A stretch of 44,698 nt of DNA from a virus: the IMG/VR virus record IMGVR_UViG_3300043395_000523, positions 1 through 44,698 of that record; one strand, 5' to 3'. Both the position numbers and the translations under genes were made by a program. Of this stretch, positions 37,137 through 43,814 are shown piece by piece. Under the pieces are notes generated by a model. The model was given only the letters and a program-made list of their open reading frames with translations, searched no databases and had not been told where the DNA came from. Positions within the stretch are counted from its first letter, which is position 1. Each line of letters begins with the position of its first letter.

Positions 37137-39425
37137 TTACGCTGAGAATGATGCTCCTGTTGGTAAGATGTTGAAATCTAATACGATAAATTCAGCCGTT
37201 TTAGTTGGTTGTAAGAAAATCTGACCAGCTAAGATGTTTCTATCGATTACATCAGGTGTGTTATTGCTCTCATCCATTACTACTCTAAACGCATATAAAC
37301 CTTGTCTTTGTTGAATTGCTTCTAAGTATGGATTTACTGTGTTTAAGAATCTTGAGCGTGTTGTTGCTGTATTTTGTTCGAACACTAAGTATCTTGATGT
37401 AGAAGCGATATACTTCTTAACCTTGATAAGTAATCTTCTTACGTTAATTCTATCTAATGCAGATGATTTTTCTTGTAAAGTCTTTTGACCAAATGCCACG
37501 ATACCCTCACCAGGGAAAGAAGCGATTGGATTTACTTTACCTTCATATAAGTCATCTCTTTCAGAGTGTGTTAATCTATTCAATACTGAAACTGCCCCAA
37601 CAATACCACCTCTATTCAAACCAGCTGGTGCGAACCATTCTGCTGCTGTAGCATCGTTTGCTGCGTATATTCCTGGCATCAATACTGATGGTGGAACTGC
37701 AGTTAATTTGTTTGTGTTTCTATCGATTGTTTTAACCCACGGGTAGTAAGTTCCAACATAGTTAGAATCTACTGAAGCTGCTTGGTCTGTTGCATCTGAA
37801 ATAGTTGCAGATTGACCAACTACATCACCGATGAAGAATACATCTTCTCTATTCTCACACATTTCAGTAATATAATCGAATACATAAGAGTGATATTGTC
37901 TAACAACACCAGGTGCTGCGATTAAGTTAATATCAAAATCATCAGGATTAGATACTGCGTTGATTGCTTTTACATAAGCAACTGAACCACTTGCAAGTGA
38001 ACCATTTAAGTTAAATCCTTGTGAATTACCTTCTGATAAATCACTTCCTTTATAGTTTACTCTTGTTGGAGTTACACCATCAAATCCACCTTGAAAACCT
38101 AATATGAATTGTCTTTTAGCAACATCGTTTGATGTACCTGCAACTAATGTTAATCCTAAATCTTCTAATGAGAATGCGGTATCAGTTGCTGCGTTTGCAG
38201 GGATTGGTTTTAAGTATTGTTTGTTGTTTATTTTAACTACTGCAGTTTCTAAATCAATACCAGAGAACTTAGTCGCTGATGAAGATGTGTTAGCTACTGA
38301 ACCAGTTGAATAAATTACTGATGGGATAGTACCTGTTGTTGTGTAGATTGGTGCATCGTATCCAGCGTGTCCAAAAGGACCAGCAATGATTGGGAATGTA
38401 CCATTTGCTTTAACTTCAACTCTTATAAACTTAGAACGATTAGCGTAATCACCAGTTTCGATTTGTTTACCATTTGCATCGATAGTCAATTGTCTATCAC
38501 CAATTACTTTAGCGATATAATTTGATGATGCAGGGTCTAAGTTTACATTATTATATGTTTCTAATACTATTTTCTTTTTGTCAGTATCACTAAAACCTCT
38601 AACTGTTACTGTGAATGTAGCGTAATCAGTTGCTGCTGATTCACCAGCTGCTTTTACATTTGAAATACCAATTTTATATTCAGTATTGTATGCAGAACCA
38701 TCACCTAACGTATGGAAACGGAAAAGGTCATGAGTTTCACCACTAATTGCTTGTGATTTAACCCACGGAGTAGTTGCGAATGTTACATCAGATGAAAAAT
38801 CTTGTGTTGGTAATTGTATAACTTTCACTACCGAACCAGATGTTAAATCAAATGATACTGCATCAGTTGCTGTTTTTTCAAAGTATGTGTAAGTATATGC
38901 ATTCTTAGTACCTTGTGCACTTTCACCAAACACATCAGATAAATCATTACCTGCTGCAGGGTCGATTGAAGCAGATTGGTTGTATCCTAAGTATGAACCA
39001 CTAATATGGAATGCAGATGCAGAAGGATTAGCAAATATTGCCGAACCAGTTAAACCTACATCTTCGTTATTTTCGTTGGTTACGTGTAATGTACCAATAA
39101 TTTTATTACCAGTTGCAGAACCGCTAACTGCGATTGCGATTGGAGCTACATGTGTATAACCACCGATATGTCCAACACGAACGATAGTTACTGTCCCTGC
39201 TTCTCTTAAATAATTTTGAACTGCGTACCCTGTATAGTATGTTCCATCAGGTGTACCGAATATTTCCTCAAATTCTGATTGTGTATTAACCACAGTTGGT
39301 AAGAACGCCGGTCCTTTAGCAAAAGGTCCTACTATTGCTGCTCCTATTTCTCCAATTCCCTGTGCTAAGAATGAAAGGTCATTTTCTCTTGTGAATACAC
39401 CAGGTGATACAATCTTTTCTGCCAT
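37137..39425 (-). CDS. Tail sheath protein (T4 gp18-like)
   Basis: 762 residues. SPGVFTRENDLSFLAQG at the start and the ending FLQPTKTAEFIVLDFNILPTGASF are hallmarks of contractile sheath proteins; in between lie VNPIASFPGEGIVAFGQKTL and LIKVKKYIASTSRYLVFEQN, the conserved C-terminal domain that holds sheath subunits together by strand exchange. The central region (about 115-500) is a variable insertion, as usual for surface domains. The protein contracts to drive the tube through the cell envelope. A late-type promoter L2 and AGGAG ribosome site precede it. Confidence 0.96.
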   Translation of the reverse strand: MAEKIVSPGVFTRENDLSFLAQGIGEIGAAIVGPFAKGPAFLPTVVNTQSEFEEIFGTPDGTYYTGYAVQNYLREAGTVTIVRVGHIGGYTHVAPIAIAVSGSATGNKIIGTLHVTNENNEDVGLTGSAIFANPSASAFHISGSYLGYNQSASIDPAAGNDLSDVFGESAQGTKNAYTYTYFEKTATDAVSFDLTSGSVVKVIQLPTQDFSSDVTFATTPWVKSQAISGETHDLFRFHTLGDGSAYNTEYKIGISNVKAAGESAATDYATFTVTVRGFSDTDKKKIVLETYNNVNLDPASSNYIAKVIGDRQLTIDANGKQIETGDYANRSKFIRVEVKANGTFPIIAGPFGHAGYDAPIYTTTGTIPSVIYSTGSVANTSSSATKFSGIDLETAVVKINNKQYLKPIPANAATDTAFSLEDLGLTLVAGTSNDVAKRQFILGFQGGFDGVTPTRVNYKGSDLSEGNSQGFNLNGSLASGSVAYVKAINAVSNPDDFDINLIAAPGVVRQYHSYVFDYITEMCENREDVFFIGDVVGQSATISDATDQAASVDSNYVGTYYPWVKTIDRNTNKLTAVPPSVLMPGIYAANDATAAEWFAPAGLNRGGIVGAVSVLNRLTHSERDDLYEGKVNPIASFPGEGIVAFGQKTLQEKSSALDRINVRRLLIKVKKYIASTSRYLVFEQNTATTRSRFLNTVNPYLEAIQQRQGLYAFRVVMDESNNTPDVIDRNILAGQIFLQPTKTAEFIVLDFNILPTGASFSA

Positions 39426-39520: not shown

Positions 39521-39790
39521 TTATTTTTGAATTGGGGTGAATATTCCAGTATTTGGGTCATAATCACCATCTCCGTACTTTTCATTTAACGATTTGAATA
39601 TTGAATCTTCTTTTACAACTAATTCTTTATATTTTGATAATAAAGTGGCTTCAGTTGATTCTAATTCTTCTAAACGTTTTGTTTTTTCAATTTGTAGTTG
39701 TCCTAATTGTGTAAAAACTGAACCTACCTCAAATCGTAAATCATTGATTTCTTTGATTTCTTCTTCCGTAAACTTAATTTGTTCTTCCAT
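39521..39790 (-). CDS. Coiled-coil protein before sheath gene (89 aa)
   Basis: Almost entirely a charged heptad-patterned helix (FTEEEIKEINDLRFEVG, LGQLQIEKTKRLEELESTE, LLSKYKELVVKED), ending YGDGDYDPNTGIFTP. The coiled coil suggests oligomerisation or a structural or scaffold role. Small coiled-coil proteins of this type occur in T4-like phages without known function. It has its own late-type promoter L1. Confidence 0.68.
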   Translation of the reverse strand: MEEQIKFTEEEIKEINDLRFEVGSVFTQLGQLQIEKTKRLEELESTEATLLSKYKELVVKEDSIFKSLNEKYGDGDYDPNTGIFTPIQK

Positions 39791-39859: not shown

Positions 39860-41131
39860 TTATCTAGTAAATGTTAAAGTTGTAGACCAGTTACTTTTAA
39901 GACCTTGGTCAATTGCTCTTACTCTACAATACCATGTTCCCGCAGATAATAAGGTATTTACCTCTAATCCAGTCGTACTCCATTCAGTATAATCGATTGT
40001 TAAAGTTCCAAATCCACTACTACTTGATATTTGAACATCATATGCTGTAATACCAGTTGTACCTACTGATGATGGTGCTGTCCAATCGATACGAGGTGAT
40101 GAATATGTTAATGCTGTTGGTGCTGCTGGAGCTCCAAAATCAGTAAATGAGTTTCCACCCTTATTGTGGGTAATATATCCGTTTACTAAGTAAGTATCGT
40201 TTTCTTCAACGTCAATTGAAACAATTTCAGTTGTTTCATTTTCTATTACAACCGATGTAACATCAATTTCTTCAATACCACTATCAGATGCTTTAATTAA
40301 TTTATCACCAACTTCTAATAAAAATACTTGTTTAAATTTATATTGTCCAGATTGTAAATCTTTAACTAATAAAGGGTGTTCGGATGTTGCTGTGATTTGT
40401 CCGTTATTAATACTATAATATTTACCTGTAAATGAATATACTACACCTACAACTGTTACATCTTTTTCAGTTGCATCTAATGTAGATGTTTGCCAATCAT
40501 AAAAATTATAATCAGATTCTAATCCTAATCCGTTAAGTGAATATCCTTTTAATACATCTCCTTCTTCAATCATTCCCACTTCTTTTATAGTTCCATCAGC
40601 CATCATAATTGGTGAATCAGATGTTAAACAAAGTGCTACGGAGTTACCATCGTATGAATCTACGGAATAAACTGTTTTATCTTTGTTTGTGTTATATCCA
40701 GTTGCGTGGTCATTAAATCCATCGTTAAATACACATCTAATTGTATGTGATTGAACTGATTGTAATACTGTTTGTGCAGAAGGTGCTTGTGGATTCATTG
40801 TTCCAACACTAAATGTACATGATATACCACTATTAGTTCCTACTGATAAATAAGAACCTGCAGGTACGCTCCAAGTGAAATTTCCTGCTCTGCCACTAAT
40901 TCTACTAAAATTAGCACCATCACCACTAACACCTAATGTATAAGTTTCACTAGTCCCTTCTACTGCGTAAGTATATCCACTAAGAGAACCAACTGAATCA
41001 ATAGCAAATGAAGACATTGCAATTGGACCAGTTGTATTACCTTTTGCTGCAGATAAAGATTTTGTACTTTGTCCTGTAGCAGATGCTAAACCATTTAAAC
41101 TTAATGTATTTCCAGATGTTAATGTTGCCAT
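39860..41131 (-). CDS. Virion-type protein with embedded Hint (intein-like) domain and fibronectin III-like domain
   Basis: 423 residues in three parts. Residues 1-167 are a beta-rich, Ser/Gly/Thr-rich region of fibre type. Residues 168-323 form a Hint domain: Cys168 begins block A (CLTSDSPIMMADGT), Thr249-His252 is the block B TxxH (ATSEHPLLV), and the end is YLVNGYITHN with His322-Asn323. The residue after Asn is Lys324 (KGG), not Cys, Ser or Thr, so normal protein splicing should not occur; bacterial intein-like domains of this kind cleave or cross-link instead. Residues 333-423 resemble a fibronectin type III domain (APAAPTALTYSS...IDWTAP, ITAYDVQISSS, GTWYCRVRAID). The protein lies between fibre genes and sheath, so it is probably a virion surface protein (inference). 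Confidence 0.85.
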   Translation of the reverse strand: MATLTSGNTLSLNGLASATGQSTKSLSAAKGNTTGPIAMSSFAIDSVGSLSGYTYAVEGTSETYTLGVSGDGANFSRISGRAGNFTWSVPAGSYLSVGTNSGISCTFSVGTMNPQAPSAQTVLQSVQSHTIRCVFNDGFNDHATGYNTNKDKTVYSVDSYDGNSVALCLTSDSPIMMADGTIKEVGMIEEGDVLKGYSLNGLGLESDYNFYDWQTSTLDATEKDVTVVGVVYSFTGKYYSINNGQITATSEHPLLVKDLQSGQYKFKQVFLLEVGDKLIKASDSGIEEIDVTSVVIENETTEIVSIDVEENDTYLVNGYITHNKGGNSFTDFGAPAAPTALTYSSPRIDWTAPSSVGTTGITAYDVQISSSSGFGTLTIDYTEWSTTGLEVNTLLSAGTWYCRVRAIDQGLKSNWSTTLTFTR

Positions 41132-41140
41132 ATTTTTTTC

Positions 41141-42139
41141 CTATATGTTATAAATATCTAATAAAGATTGAATCCATTGTTCTTTATTAGTATAACGTTC
41201 TTTCATAAAATCTTTTATCTTATTAAACCAAAATAATTTTGTTTCGTAAGATTGCGTGATAATCTCACTATAAATATCATTAAATTCCTTTTTAGATGAA
41301 GCACGATATGGATAATCAAAATCTTTACACCATGTCTTATGAATTATTGGTAATTTACCCCTATCTACTGCTTCAAATATAGAATAACCAAATGGTTCGG
41401 ATGTAAATGCAGAATGAGATATTCCCCAATTCATATTATAAAATTTATCTTTAAAATCCGAATCGTAATGATATATTTTAGATTTTGATAAATCTAATTT
41501 TACCCCTTGTTTCCAAAATAAATTAAATTCTACTGAATTTGTAAATATTAGAGATTTTAACCCATCTAAGTAATGTGGATTTTTTCTACCCTCACATCTT
41601 GACGCAAATCCTATTTTATTTGATTCTGAAAGAGGTAGATTGTGTGTAAATTCGTAAAAATTTGGTATATTTTTATTAGGAAACAAAATATCATATAATC
41701 CTACCCAAATAGTATGTTTTGACCACTTATTTACCTCTTTTTCCCACTCTGAACTTAAATAAGGATGCCAACCTAATGATGCATCAGTTAGAACTTGCGA
41801 TTTTAGGATATGGTCTACTGAATTATGTAATATGTTTGAATGAATTTTGTCTTTGTTATCTACAATACACTTCATAGGTGTATAATGTCCATGTAAAATG
41901 TTGATTCTTCTTGCACCTTTACATAATTCCTCAAATTTTTGGATATCCTCACCATGCCAGTAAGTTTCTATTGGAAATTGATAATCTTCATGTCCTTTTG
42001 GTTTGTTTCTATGAATTAGAAGAATTGGCTTCACATCTAATTTAGGTGCAACCAATTTCATCCATAAATTTACCCAAATATCAGAACCTGCATTTACCCA
42101 CGGACCTCCTCCAGTGGTATAATAAACATCGTAAACCAT
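41141..42139 (-). CDS. Glycosyltransferase (GT-B type, family 4-like)
   Basis: 332 residues, cytoplasmic, without membrane segment. The C-terminal half has the signatures of GT-B retaining transferases: IGFASRCEGRKNPHYLDGL with the basic residues that hold the nucleotide-sugar phosphate, and SEPFGYSIFEAVDRGKLPII containing the E-x7-E motif for sugar-nucleotide binding. The N-terminal half (YDVYYTTGGGPWVNAGSDIW, INILHGHYTP) is the acceptor domain. It is embedded between fibre genes, 9 nt above the Hint gene and 16 nt below the LamG-FReD gene. Plausible targets are virion proteins or host glycans; DNA modification is less likely from place. Confidence 0.83.
   Translation of the reverse strand: MVYDVYYTTGGGPWVNAGSDIWVNLWMKLVAPKLDVKPILLIHRNKPKGHEDYQFPIETYWHGEDIQKFEELCKGARRINILHGHYTPMKCIVDNKDKIHSNILHNSVDHILKSQVLTDASLGWHPYLSSEWEKEVNKWSKHTIWVGLYDILFPNKNIPNFYEFTHNLPLSESNKIGFASRCEGRKNPHYLDGLKSLIFTNSVEFNLFWKQGVKLDLSKSKIYHYDSDFKDKFYNMNWGISHSAFTSEPFGYSIFEAVDRGKLPIIHKTWCKDFDYPYRASSKKEFNDIYSEIITQSYETKLFWFNKIKDFMKERYTNKEQWIQSLLDIYNI
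41148..41160 (-). promoter_or_regulatory. ATAYTTAT-class promoter candidate L9 (before Hint-domain gene)
   Basis: Minus strand TAGATATTTATAA, 17 nt before the ATG at 41131, overlapping the end of the glycosyltransferase gene, followed by AGGA. Confidence 0.4.
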
Positions 42140-42155
42140 TTATTTTATTATTTTA

Positions 42156-43814
42156 TTATCTAATATACACCTCAACTCGTGCACTTCTATTAATACCAGT
42201 AGTATCTTGACAACACCCAATCATATCACCACCTGAATAATTTCCATATCTACTATCCATACCAATACCACCACTCACATCATCCGAACCTCTATATGGT
42301 CCAACTGCCAACGTAGCTGGAGATGAATATAAACCCTCACCATTTTCATTCCAACCAAATCCCCATCTTACTTTAGCATCAGATGCTCCAAAATATAATG
42401 GGTTATTTCTAAAATTAAATCCATAAAATCTAATATCTACCTGACTTGAGAATACCCCACTTGCCCAACCACTAAAAGTTTTTGCATCTTTAATAAAATA
42501 TCCACCATAAGACCCACCATCACCACTTTCAAATGTACCTGCATTACTAAAAAAATCTACCAAATTTGTTCTCGCAGAACTTCTACCACTATTGAAACTT
42601 TTTTCTAACCAAGTCCATACACCAACACCGGATATACTACCACCTGCACCAATATCAGGCCATCTTGCCATTAAATCCGAACCCTCAAAGTAATTAAATG
42701 CATCATATTTTGCATCACCATCATCTAAATGTAAATTTGTAGGATTTAATGTATTTCTTGTTGTCCAATAACTGGCACCATAATTAAATGTAGTTCCTCT
42801 TGTTGCTTTCATAGTCAACATCCATCCACCACCATCATATGCACTATCCATAATACAATATGTTTTACTTGCACCTGCTGTTGGTAAATTTATATAATAC
42901 ACCCCATCTGGCGCATTTGAATTCATTGCTTTAATAGTTGCTGCTGAATCTGCAGGGTTGAATGCAGAACCCAAAGGTGCATCTACTCCATATCTTCCTC
43001 TTTGTTCATTAAAGACATTTCCAATTTCTTCATCACTTAATGCTCTATTATAAACCATTACTGCACCCAAATATCCAATTAATAATTCACCATCATTTCC
43101 TTCACCAAATCTTAAAGTTTCAGTATTTGTAGTAGAACTAACTGTTCCGGTTACATACGAACAACGAATCGTATTAATAAATGTTGCTTTTGATGAACCA
43201 TCATGTCTAATTACAACGTGTTGCCATTTGCTACCTTCTATTGAACTAGCAGGAGTATTTATTGGGCCTAATGAGTAATTGGTTTCATAGTGTATGTATT
43301 TACTTGGACTATTTAAAGTTGCCGCATATTGTTGTGAGTTTCCTTTACTGATTAATCCATGCCAAGTTCCACCACCTAATGATGGATTTACCCAAATTAA
43401 TGCAGTATATTGTTGAGTAGATGTAAAATCCAATGAACTATGATGTGCAACGTTTGCTCGAGCAGTTCCATCAAAATATAATGAACCACCACTATTTGTA
43501 TTAAAAGTTACACCGGATGCAGGTAAGGTTAAATTATTAGAATTGCCGGATAAATCCGTTAAAGTTGTTCCATTACCACTATAACATTGTGGATTTCCGG
43601 CATCTATAAAACATACTAATCCAGATGTACTATATCTTTCACTTTTCTTTTGTGCACTTATCCACTTACTACCATCATATACTTCCGTTTCCGAACGTGA
43701 AGAATTATATCTTAACATACCAGTAGTTGGAGATGGTCTTTGTGTACCAGTTCCAGATGGCAATGCAATATACCCTGAATTACTTGTTATTTGTGTATTT
43801 TTAAGTGTTGCCAT
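42156..43814 (-). CDS. Fibre protein with LamG-like and fibrinogen-like domains
   Basis: 552 residues. N-terminal ~55 residues share a motif (MATLKN, GYIxLPxG, RPS, LRYN) with the next fibre gene, probably the virion attachment part. Residues ~62-275 are a LamG/concanavalin-like beta sandwich (SLYFDGTARANVAHHSSLDF, then TALIWVNP, WQHVVIRHDG, GYLGAVMVYNRALSDEEI). Residues ~285-552 match a fibrinogen-related domain: DGVYYINLPTAGASKTYCIM, YDGGGWMLTMKAT and a long C-terminal part with CCQDT. Such domains bind sugars in other proteins, so this is probably a host glycan adhesin. Its gene is 1 nt from the preceding fibre gene and followed by the glycosyltransferase. Confidence 0.83.
   Translation of the reverse strand: MATLKNTQITSNSGYIALPSGTGTQRPSPTTGMLRYNSSRSETEVYDGSKWISAQKKSERYSTSGLVCFIDAGNPQCYSGNGTTLTDLSGNSNNLTLPASGVTFNTNSGGSLYFDGTARANVAHHSSLDFTSTQQYTALIWVNPSLGGGTWHGLISKGNSQQYAATLNSPSKYIHYETNYSLGPINTPASSIEGSKWQHVVIRHDGSSKATFINTIRCSYVTGTVSSTTNTETLRFGEGNDGELLIGYLGAVMVYNRALSDEEIGNVFNEQRGRYGVDAPLGSAFNPADSAATIKAMNSNAPDGVYYINLPTAGASKTYCIMDSAYDGGGWMLTMKATRGTTFNYGASYWTTRNTLNPTNLHLDDGDAKYDAFNYFEGSDLMARWPDIGAGGSISGVGVWTWLEKSFNSGRSSARTNLVDFFSNAGTFESGDGGSYGGYFIKDAKTFSGWASGVFSSQVDIRFYGFNFRNNPLYFGASDAKVRWGFGWNENGEGLYSSPATLAVGPYRGSDDVSGGIGMDSRYGNYSGGDMIGCCQDTTGINRSARVEVYIR

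Follow-up and report, generated by a model that had tools for sequence, protein, structure and literature searches.

A BIL-like Hint domain followed by an invariant lysine in a probable tail or adsorption protein of aquatic T4-like phages

Hint domains without a canonical splicing nucleophile

In established Hint chemistry, an intact cysteine at position 1 (Cys1), the histidine of block B and a terminal His-Asn (HN) pair imply an N-to-S acyl shift and asparagine cyclisation. All of these residues are found in a Hint domain encoded by a 44,698-nucleotide stretch of viral DNA (IMG/VR record IMGVR_UViG_3300043395_000523, positions 1 to 44,698), referred to here as the window, but the residue that follows the HN pair (+1) is a lysine. 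The absence of Cys, Ser or Thr at this position rules out class 1 splicing through the +1 side chain.

The A-type bacterial intein-like (BIL) domains, for example that of Clostridium thermocellum (2lwy), share the Hint fold, Cys1, TxxH motif and HN pair of the window domain, and they also lack Cys, Ser or Thr at +1. Cleavage is their main outcome, and minor splicing occurs when the freed amine attacks the thioester (aminolysis) (PMC4031507). A-type BILs occur in bacterial proteins that are not conserved, within their hypervariable regions, whereas the window Hint belongs to a conserved phage tail cluster and its family, unlike A-type BILs, has +1 fixed as Lys throughout. The domain is therefore called A-type-BIL-like here, and is not filed as an A-type BIL.

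The closest fold is that of BIL2 from the Tetrahymena BUBL1 locus (6y75, 6tmm), which splices without a canonical nucleophile by forming an isopeptide bond to a lysine, and which also transfers its donor to different substrates (PMC8616854). BIL2 is zinc-activated, has ubiquitin-like flanks and carries Met at +1 in the crystallised construct, whereas the window Hint is flanked by Ig-like and fibronectin III (FnIII)-like domains and lacks the ubiquitin-like flanks of the BUBL/BIL2 type. The Hedgehog autoprocessing domain (1at0) has the same fold and the same Cys1 thioester chemistry, but it is a C-terminal Hint with a sterol-recognition region. The window Hint has an HN pair, and a Hedgehog (Hog) identity was rejected because the domain is internal and an FnIII-like domain follows it. 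Identity as a class 1 intein was likewise rejected, +1 being Lys and not a nucleophile in 86 of 86 relatives.

Among phages, the virion Hints of several jumbo phages (Erwinia phages Alexandra, Yoloswag and Y3, Yersinia phage fHe-Yen9-02 and Phage NCTB) fall in the same tree clade as the window Hint, have an intact HN pair and share its tail/virion gene neighbourhood. They differ in being C-terminal, with a tail of 7-10 residues, and in having T, V or A at +1.

The protein and its Hint domain

The open reading frame at 39860-41131 (minus strand, as are all features below) encodes a 423-aa protein which, judged from its sequence and from full-length relatives, consists of an Ig-like domain, a Hint domain and an FnIII-like domain. 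Profile and predicted-structure matches assign residues 168-323 (40163-40630) to the Hint domain, which is 156 aa long and has no endonuclease insert. Cys168 (40628-40630) is Hint position 1 and by analogy would form the thioester. The block B motif, T249-S-E-H252, lies at 40376-40387; H252 is invariant in the 78 full-length relatives, and T249 reaches at least 90% in 15. His322-Asn323 of block G (40163-40168) is by analogy the site of asparagine cyclisation, and the AAG codon of Lys324 (+1) follows at 40160-40162. These residues and boundaries had been proposed in a sequence-only reading of the window, and all of them match the sequence exactly.

The same reading had called the domain intein-like, and several lines of evidence agree that the resemblance is more than chance. 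Pfam matches of the window Hint to PT-HINT (0.016) and Intein_splicing (0.025) are below the curated cut-offs, but the Hints of relatives score better (3e-7 and 3e-6), and NCBIfam TIGR01445 (intein_Nterm) matches the region at 4e-4, just under its cut-off. A seven-member Hint profile searched against solved structures retrieved the BIL domain 2lwy (6e-6), BIL2 (6y75, ~4e-5 to 5e-5) and the KlbA intein (2e-4). The AlphaFold model has a mean pLDDT of 74, with most Hint blocks at 77-93 and a few at 59-66. The best structural match of the modelled Hint (residues 165-326 or 163-328) is BIL2 (6y75; Z 18.9, rmsd 2.1 Å, 141 residues aligned), followed by 2lwy (Z 18.3), inteins (Z 17-18) and Hedgehog (Z 17.2). 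Searches of PHROGs with the 423-aa protein and of PADLOC gave no match. Because the endonuclease insert and the +1 nucleophile are both absent, the domain is no canonical intein; the fold, the motifs and the 86 relatives instead support the proposed BIL-like Hint with an intact catalytic set.

The N-terminal part (residues 1-167; 40631-41131) is predicted to comprise a helical lead (1-42), an Ig-like beta-sandwich (~43-158) and a flexible linker up to Cys168. Folded alone (AlphaFold, 55 sequences), it reaches a mean pLDDT of 90 and a pTM of 0.84, and pLDDT drops to 55 at residues 161-167. The N-domain therefore appears to fold independently and to end in a flexible linker, which would place the Hint at a domain boundary. 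Foldseek found nothing for the N-domain at E under 0.001, and its VIA Z scores do not exceed 7.0, a value shared by many Ig-like folds and by unrelated proteins; the Ig-like domains of lambda gpV and T5 pb6 are among these best matches (Z 7.0). The C-terminal part (residues 325-423; 39863-40159) consists of a glycine-rich linker and a beta-sandwich predicted with mean pLDDT values of 76-92 in the ten-residue blocks from residue 341 onwards. Together with Pfam matches to fn3 (2e-3) and Ig_Rha78A (6e-5), both below cut-off, this fits the earlier description of the C-terminal part as FnIII-like. In the models, then, the Hint lies between two separate domains, neither of which is interrupted.

Gene neighbourhood

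The Hint gene family is found in aquatic T4-like phages, next to the tail sheath gene. In the 102 loci compared, some of which share a contig and some of which are cut by contig ends, the conserved order is a glycosyltransferase-like gene (90 loci), the Hint protein, an 89-aa gene (100), the tail sheath gene (101) and the tube gene (98). In the window, the glycosyltransferase-like gene (332 aa; 41141-42139) is directly upstream of the Hint gene, although it is only weakly assigned (the best Pfam match, to RgpF, is 7e-3). The 89-aa protein (39521-39790) is probably a coiled coil, and the sheath protein (37137-39425) matches phrog_23 at 1e-69. Microcystis phage Mel-JY01 and Flavobacterium phage immuto lack the glycosyltransferase-like and Hint genes but keep the 89-aa gene, sheath and tube, so the two upstream genes look like an added module.

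The neighbourhood points to a location of the Hint protein in the virion, where it is probably a tail or adsorption decoration protein. The earlier label "fibre-type" was loosely right, in that the gene belongs to an adsorption/tail cluster, but the N-terminal part is predicted to be an Ig-like beta-sandwich and not a trimeric fibre.

The adsorption genes further upstream differ among relatives. At 42156-43814 the window encodes a protein of 552 aa that has a Laminin_G_3 domain and whose C-terminal part looks fibrinogen-like by eye; its gene is present in 5 of the 102 loci.

Conservation among relatives

Scans of viral contigs yielded a family of 86 distinct Hints, none of which departs from Cys1, the HN pair or Lys+1. 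Loss of the Cys, His and Asn residues in homologues, which the sequence-only reading had named as evidence against an active domain, is thus seen in none of the 86. The lysine codon is AAA in 77 relatives and AAG in 9; because the codon varies, it is the residue and not the DNA that selection keeps. At +2, 81 relatives have Gly and the other 5 have E, D or S; the residue before Cys1 (-1) is an invariant Leu. The 78 full-length relatives share 22 invariant positions among the 156 of the Hint, but only 2 among the 98 of the C-terminal part beyond +2. Being fixed amid this variable sequence, Lys+1 behaves as an active-site residue, unlike the C-terminal part to which it belongs.

A comparison of homologues with and without the Hint had also been suggested, and only one side of it was found. 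None of 64 distinct N-domain proteins from viral contigs lacks the Hint (2 break off before HN), in a search that favoured close relatives and reached ~46% N-domain identity or more, and whole-protein searches of isolate phages revealed no Hint-less homologue. Such homologues are possible among more distant relatives. Each of 12 long relatives has one family Hint per record, and this single copy, together with the lack of an endonuclease, argues that the domain is not a spreading selfish intein. The Hint is thus present, intact and under selection jointly with Lys+1.

Lysine at +1 in other Hint domains

The frequency of Lys+1 was assessed with pattern scans that placed no condition on this residue, two on viral contigs and one on cellular genomes. 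At 50% identity, the 281 distinct Hints compared form 141 clusters. Mostly inteins make up the clusters with C (58), S (11) or T (3) at +1. In the remaining clusters with HN, Lys is by far the commonest +1 residue (19 clusters), followed by A (5). When each +1 state is counted once per cluster and loci from queries containing the +1 residue are left out, Lys+1 occurs in 17 of 47 non-nucleophilic clusters, against a background of 8% Lys over positions +2 to +8 (p ~1e-8 by a binomial test, ignoring relatedness among the Hints). Lys is thus the leading non-nucleophilic +1 residue in Hints of phages and some bacteria. On a tree of 116 Hints, Lys+1 takes 11 changes, and well-supported branches force at least 3. 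The window family sits in a supported clade (98) of virion-type Hints that mostly have a variable non-nucleophilic +1; in C-terminal virion Hints, +1 drifts among A, V, I, F, P, S, T, R and N.

If Lys+1 served mainly to join two large parts, one might expect it to be commoner in internal Hints. No such enrichment was found (10 of 25 internal clusters and 7 of 24 terminal ones with a tail of at most 33 residues; Fisher p 0.55), and some Lys+1 Hints have tiny tails: one residue in L410, where the protein ends in HNK, two in L042, three in L318 and five in L323. The result speaks against Lys acting mainly to join large parts and favours a local function at the junction on the C-terminal side. About 1040 tests for covariation of Lys+1 with other Hint positions gave a best p of 0.001, and nothing holds.

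Tandem arrangements also occur. A single Lys separates two Hints in L375 (HN/K/C), both Hints of L262 end in HNK, and L338, with four Hints or more, has HNK as its last residues. In L375, L374, L336, L302 and L326, an HNK Hint is followed by K, KG or KGGPSG and then by a second Hint-like domain, which lacks HN, ends the protein and resembles a Hedgehog-type domain. Poly-Hint proteins with three or four Hints in a row were seen in viral contigs (L338, L363, L361/L352), with linkers of two residues (AP, RF, KF, RA, KA) or poly-Pro; the N-terminal part of L363 is, by our own reading, putatively ATP-grasp-like.

Two further phage Hints lack parts of the catalytic set. A 289-kb relative of the window phage (L599) carries an additional Hint that is degenerate and lacks Cys1; the 509-aa protein in which it lies has a cysteine-rich end (HNTCWCPW...). 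The cultured Achromobacter phage 2-1 (L612, 1583-3025) has a tail-fibre-like protein with a C-terminal Hint without HN, near a radical SAM gene.

Proposed reaction and alternatives

We consider it likely that the Hint is an active A-type-BIL-like module between two beta-sandwich domains of a probable tail or adsorption decoration protein, which probably cuts itself and perhaps re-joins itself. By analogy with characterised Hints, an N-to-S acyl shift at Cys168 would first produce a thioester at the end of the Ig-like part (Ala166-Leu167). Asn323, aided by His322, would then cyclise and free the FnIII part, whose N-terminus would now be Lys324; autocleavage on the Asn side is very likely. The thioester could finally be resolved in one of three ways: by water, giving cleavage; by the nearest amine, the alpha- or epsilon-amine of Lys324, ligating the Ig-like to the FnIII part; or by a lysine on another protein. 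Plain cleavage appears to be somewhat ahead of lysine-mediated ligation, with transfer to another protein behind.

Simple double cleavage, in which the Ig-like and FnIII parts would be released separately and Lys+1 would favour Asn cyclisation or fit the site, is the form of this reaction that we regard as a serious possibility, if still short of probable. Characterised BILs yield mostly cleavage products (PMC7664689), and Lys+1 is frequent even where almost nothing follows the Hint (L410, L042, L318 and L323). However, if cleavage were the only outcome, one might expect the +1 residue to vary, as in virion Hints at protein C-termini, and in the window family it is Lys in 86 of 86.

Lysine-dependent splicing would instead have an amine of Lys324 attack the Cys168 thioester, joining the Ig-like part to the FnIII part through a peptide or isopeptide bond. 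Because A-type BILs splice by aminolysis and BIL2 forms a bond to a lysine, Lys+1 may itself be the ligating amine; Lys324 provides both an alpha- and an epsilon-amine, rightly placed in the sequence. The invariance of Lys beside the catalytic residues, the retention of both flanks throughout the family and the tandem Hints with one Lys between them (L375) also fit such a reaction. Against it, Lys+1 is no commoner in internal than in terminal Hints, and in BIL2 the construct has Met at +1 and the acceptor lysine is elsewhere. Amine-mediated joining is thus a real but minority possibility, and in the specific form just described it is rather unlikely. A broader proposal would make HNK-type Hints a class of lysine-dependent self-ligases, in which Lys+1 replaces Cys, Ser or Thr and leaves a peptide or isopeptide joint between the flanks; this new mode of splicing would be common among phage virion proteins, at times in tandem arrays with single-Lys linkers, but it seems to us improbable.

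The sequence-only reading had also raised the transfer of the N-terminal part to another nucleophile on the virion or the host surface. The Cys168 thioester would then pass the Ig-like domain to a third-party amine, in the manner of a ubiquitin-type ligase. BIL2 does hand its donor to different substrates, and in related phage Hints at protein C-termini a poly-Gly run, resembling the end of an acyl donor, often comes before the domain: 16 of 28 non-Lys clusters have Gly at -1. The window family, however, has an invariant Leu and not Gly at -1 and retains a C-terminal part of its own, and no acceptor is known, so that transfer is improbable here. As a separate observation, many C-terminal Hints of phage structural proteins (L041, L173, L193, L223, L236, L309, L321, L342, L343 and others) have a Gly-rich stretch directly before Cys1, reminiscent of the terminal glycines of a ubiquitin-type donor.

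The last alternative, a selfish intein, whether ordinary or degenerate, would belong to the same superfamily, but with no endonuclease, no Cys, Ser or Thr at +1, no intein-free allele in 64 N-domain proteins, no motif decay in 86 relatives and one family copy per genome record, this explanation is very improbable.

Significance

Finding a Hint in a structural gene of a phage is not in itself new: Hint domains are already annotated in uncultured tailed phages, and the record of one Erwinia phage mentions an intein domain in a tail protein. Phage structural proteins are, to our knowledge, rarely known to undergo intein-type processing, and a search of the open-access literature for phage virion Hints found descriptions only of inteins in terminases, reductases and other enzymes. 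No description of a fixed Lys after HN was found in that literature, and the recurrence of this residue in phage Hints, the syntenic module and the tandem arrays with a single Lys likewise appear to be undescribed there. Self-cutting or re-joining in the way proposed here appears not to have been described for phages in the same literature.

The window family provides a clean set for testing the role of the +1 residue. If the lysine takes part in the reaction, it would offer BIL domains a new way around their missing nucleophile and might serve as a tool for joining proteins without an enzyme. Even with cleavage as its only outcome, the domain suggests that large groups of aquatic phages depend on the self-processing of a tail-region protein.
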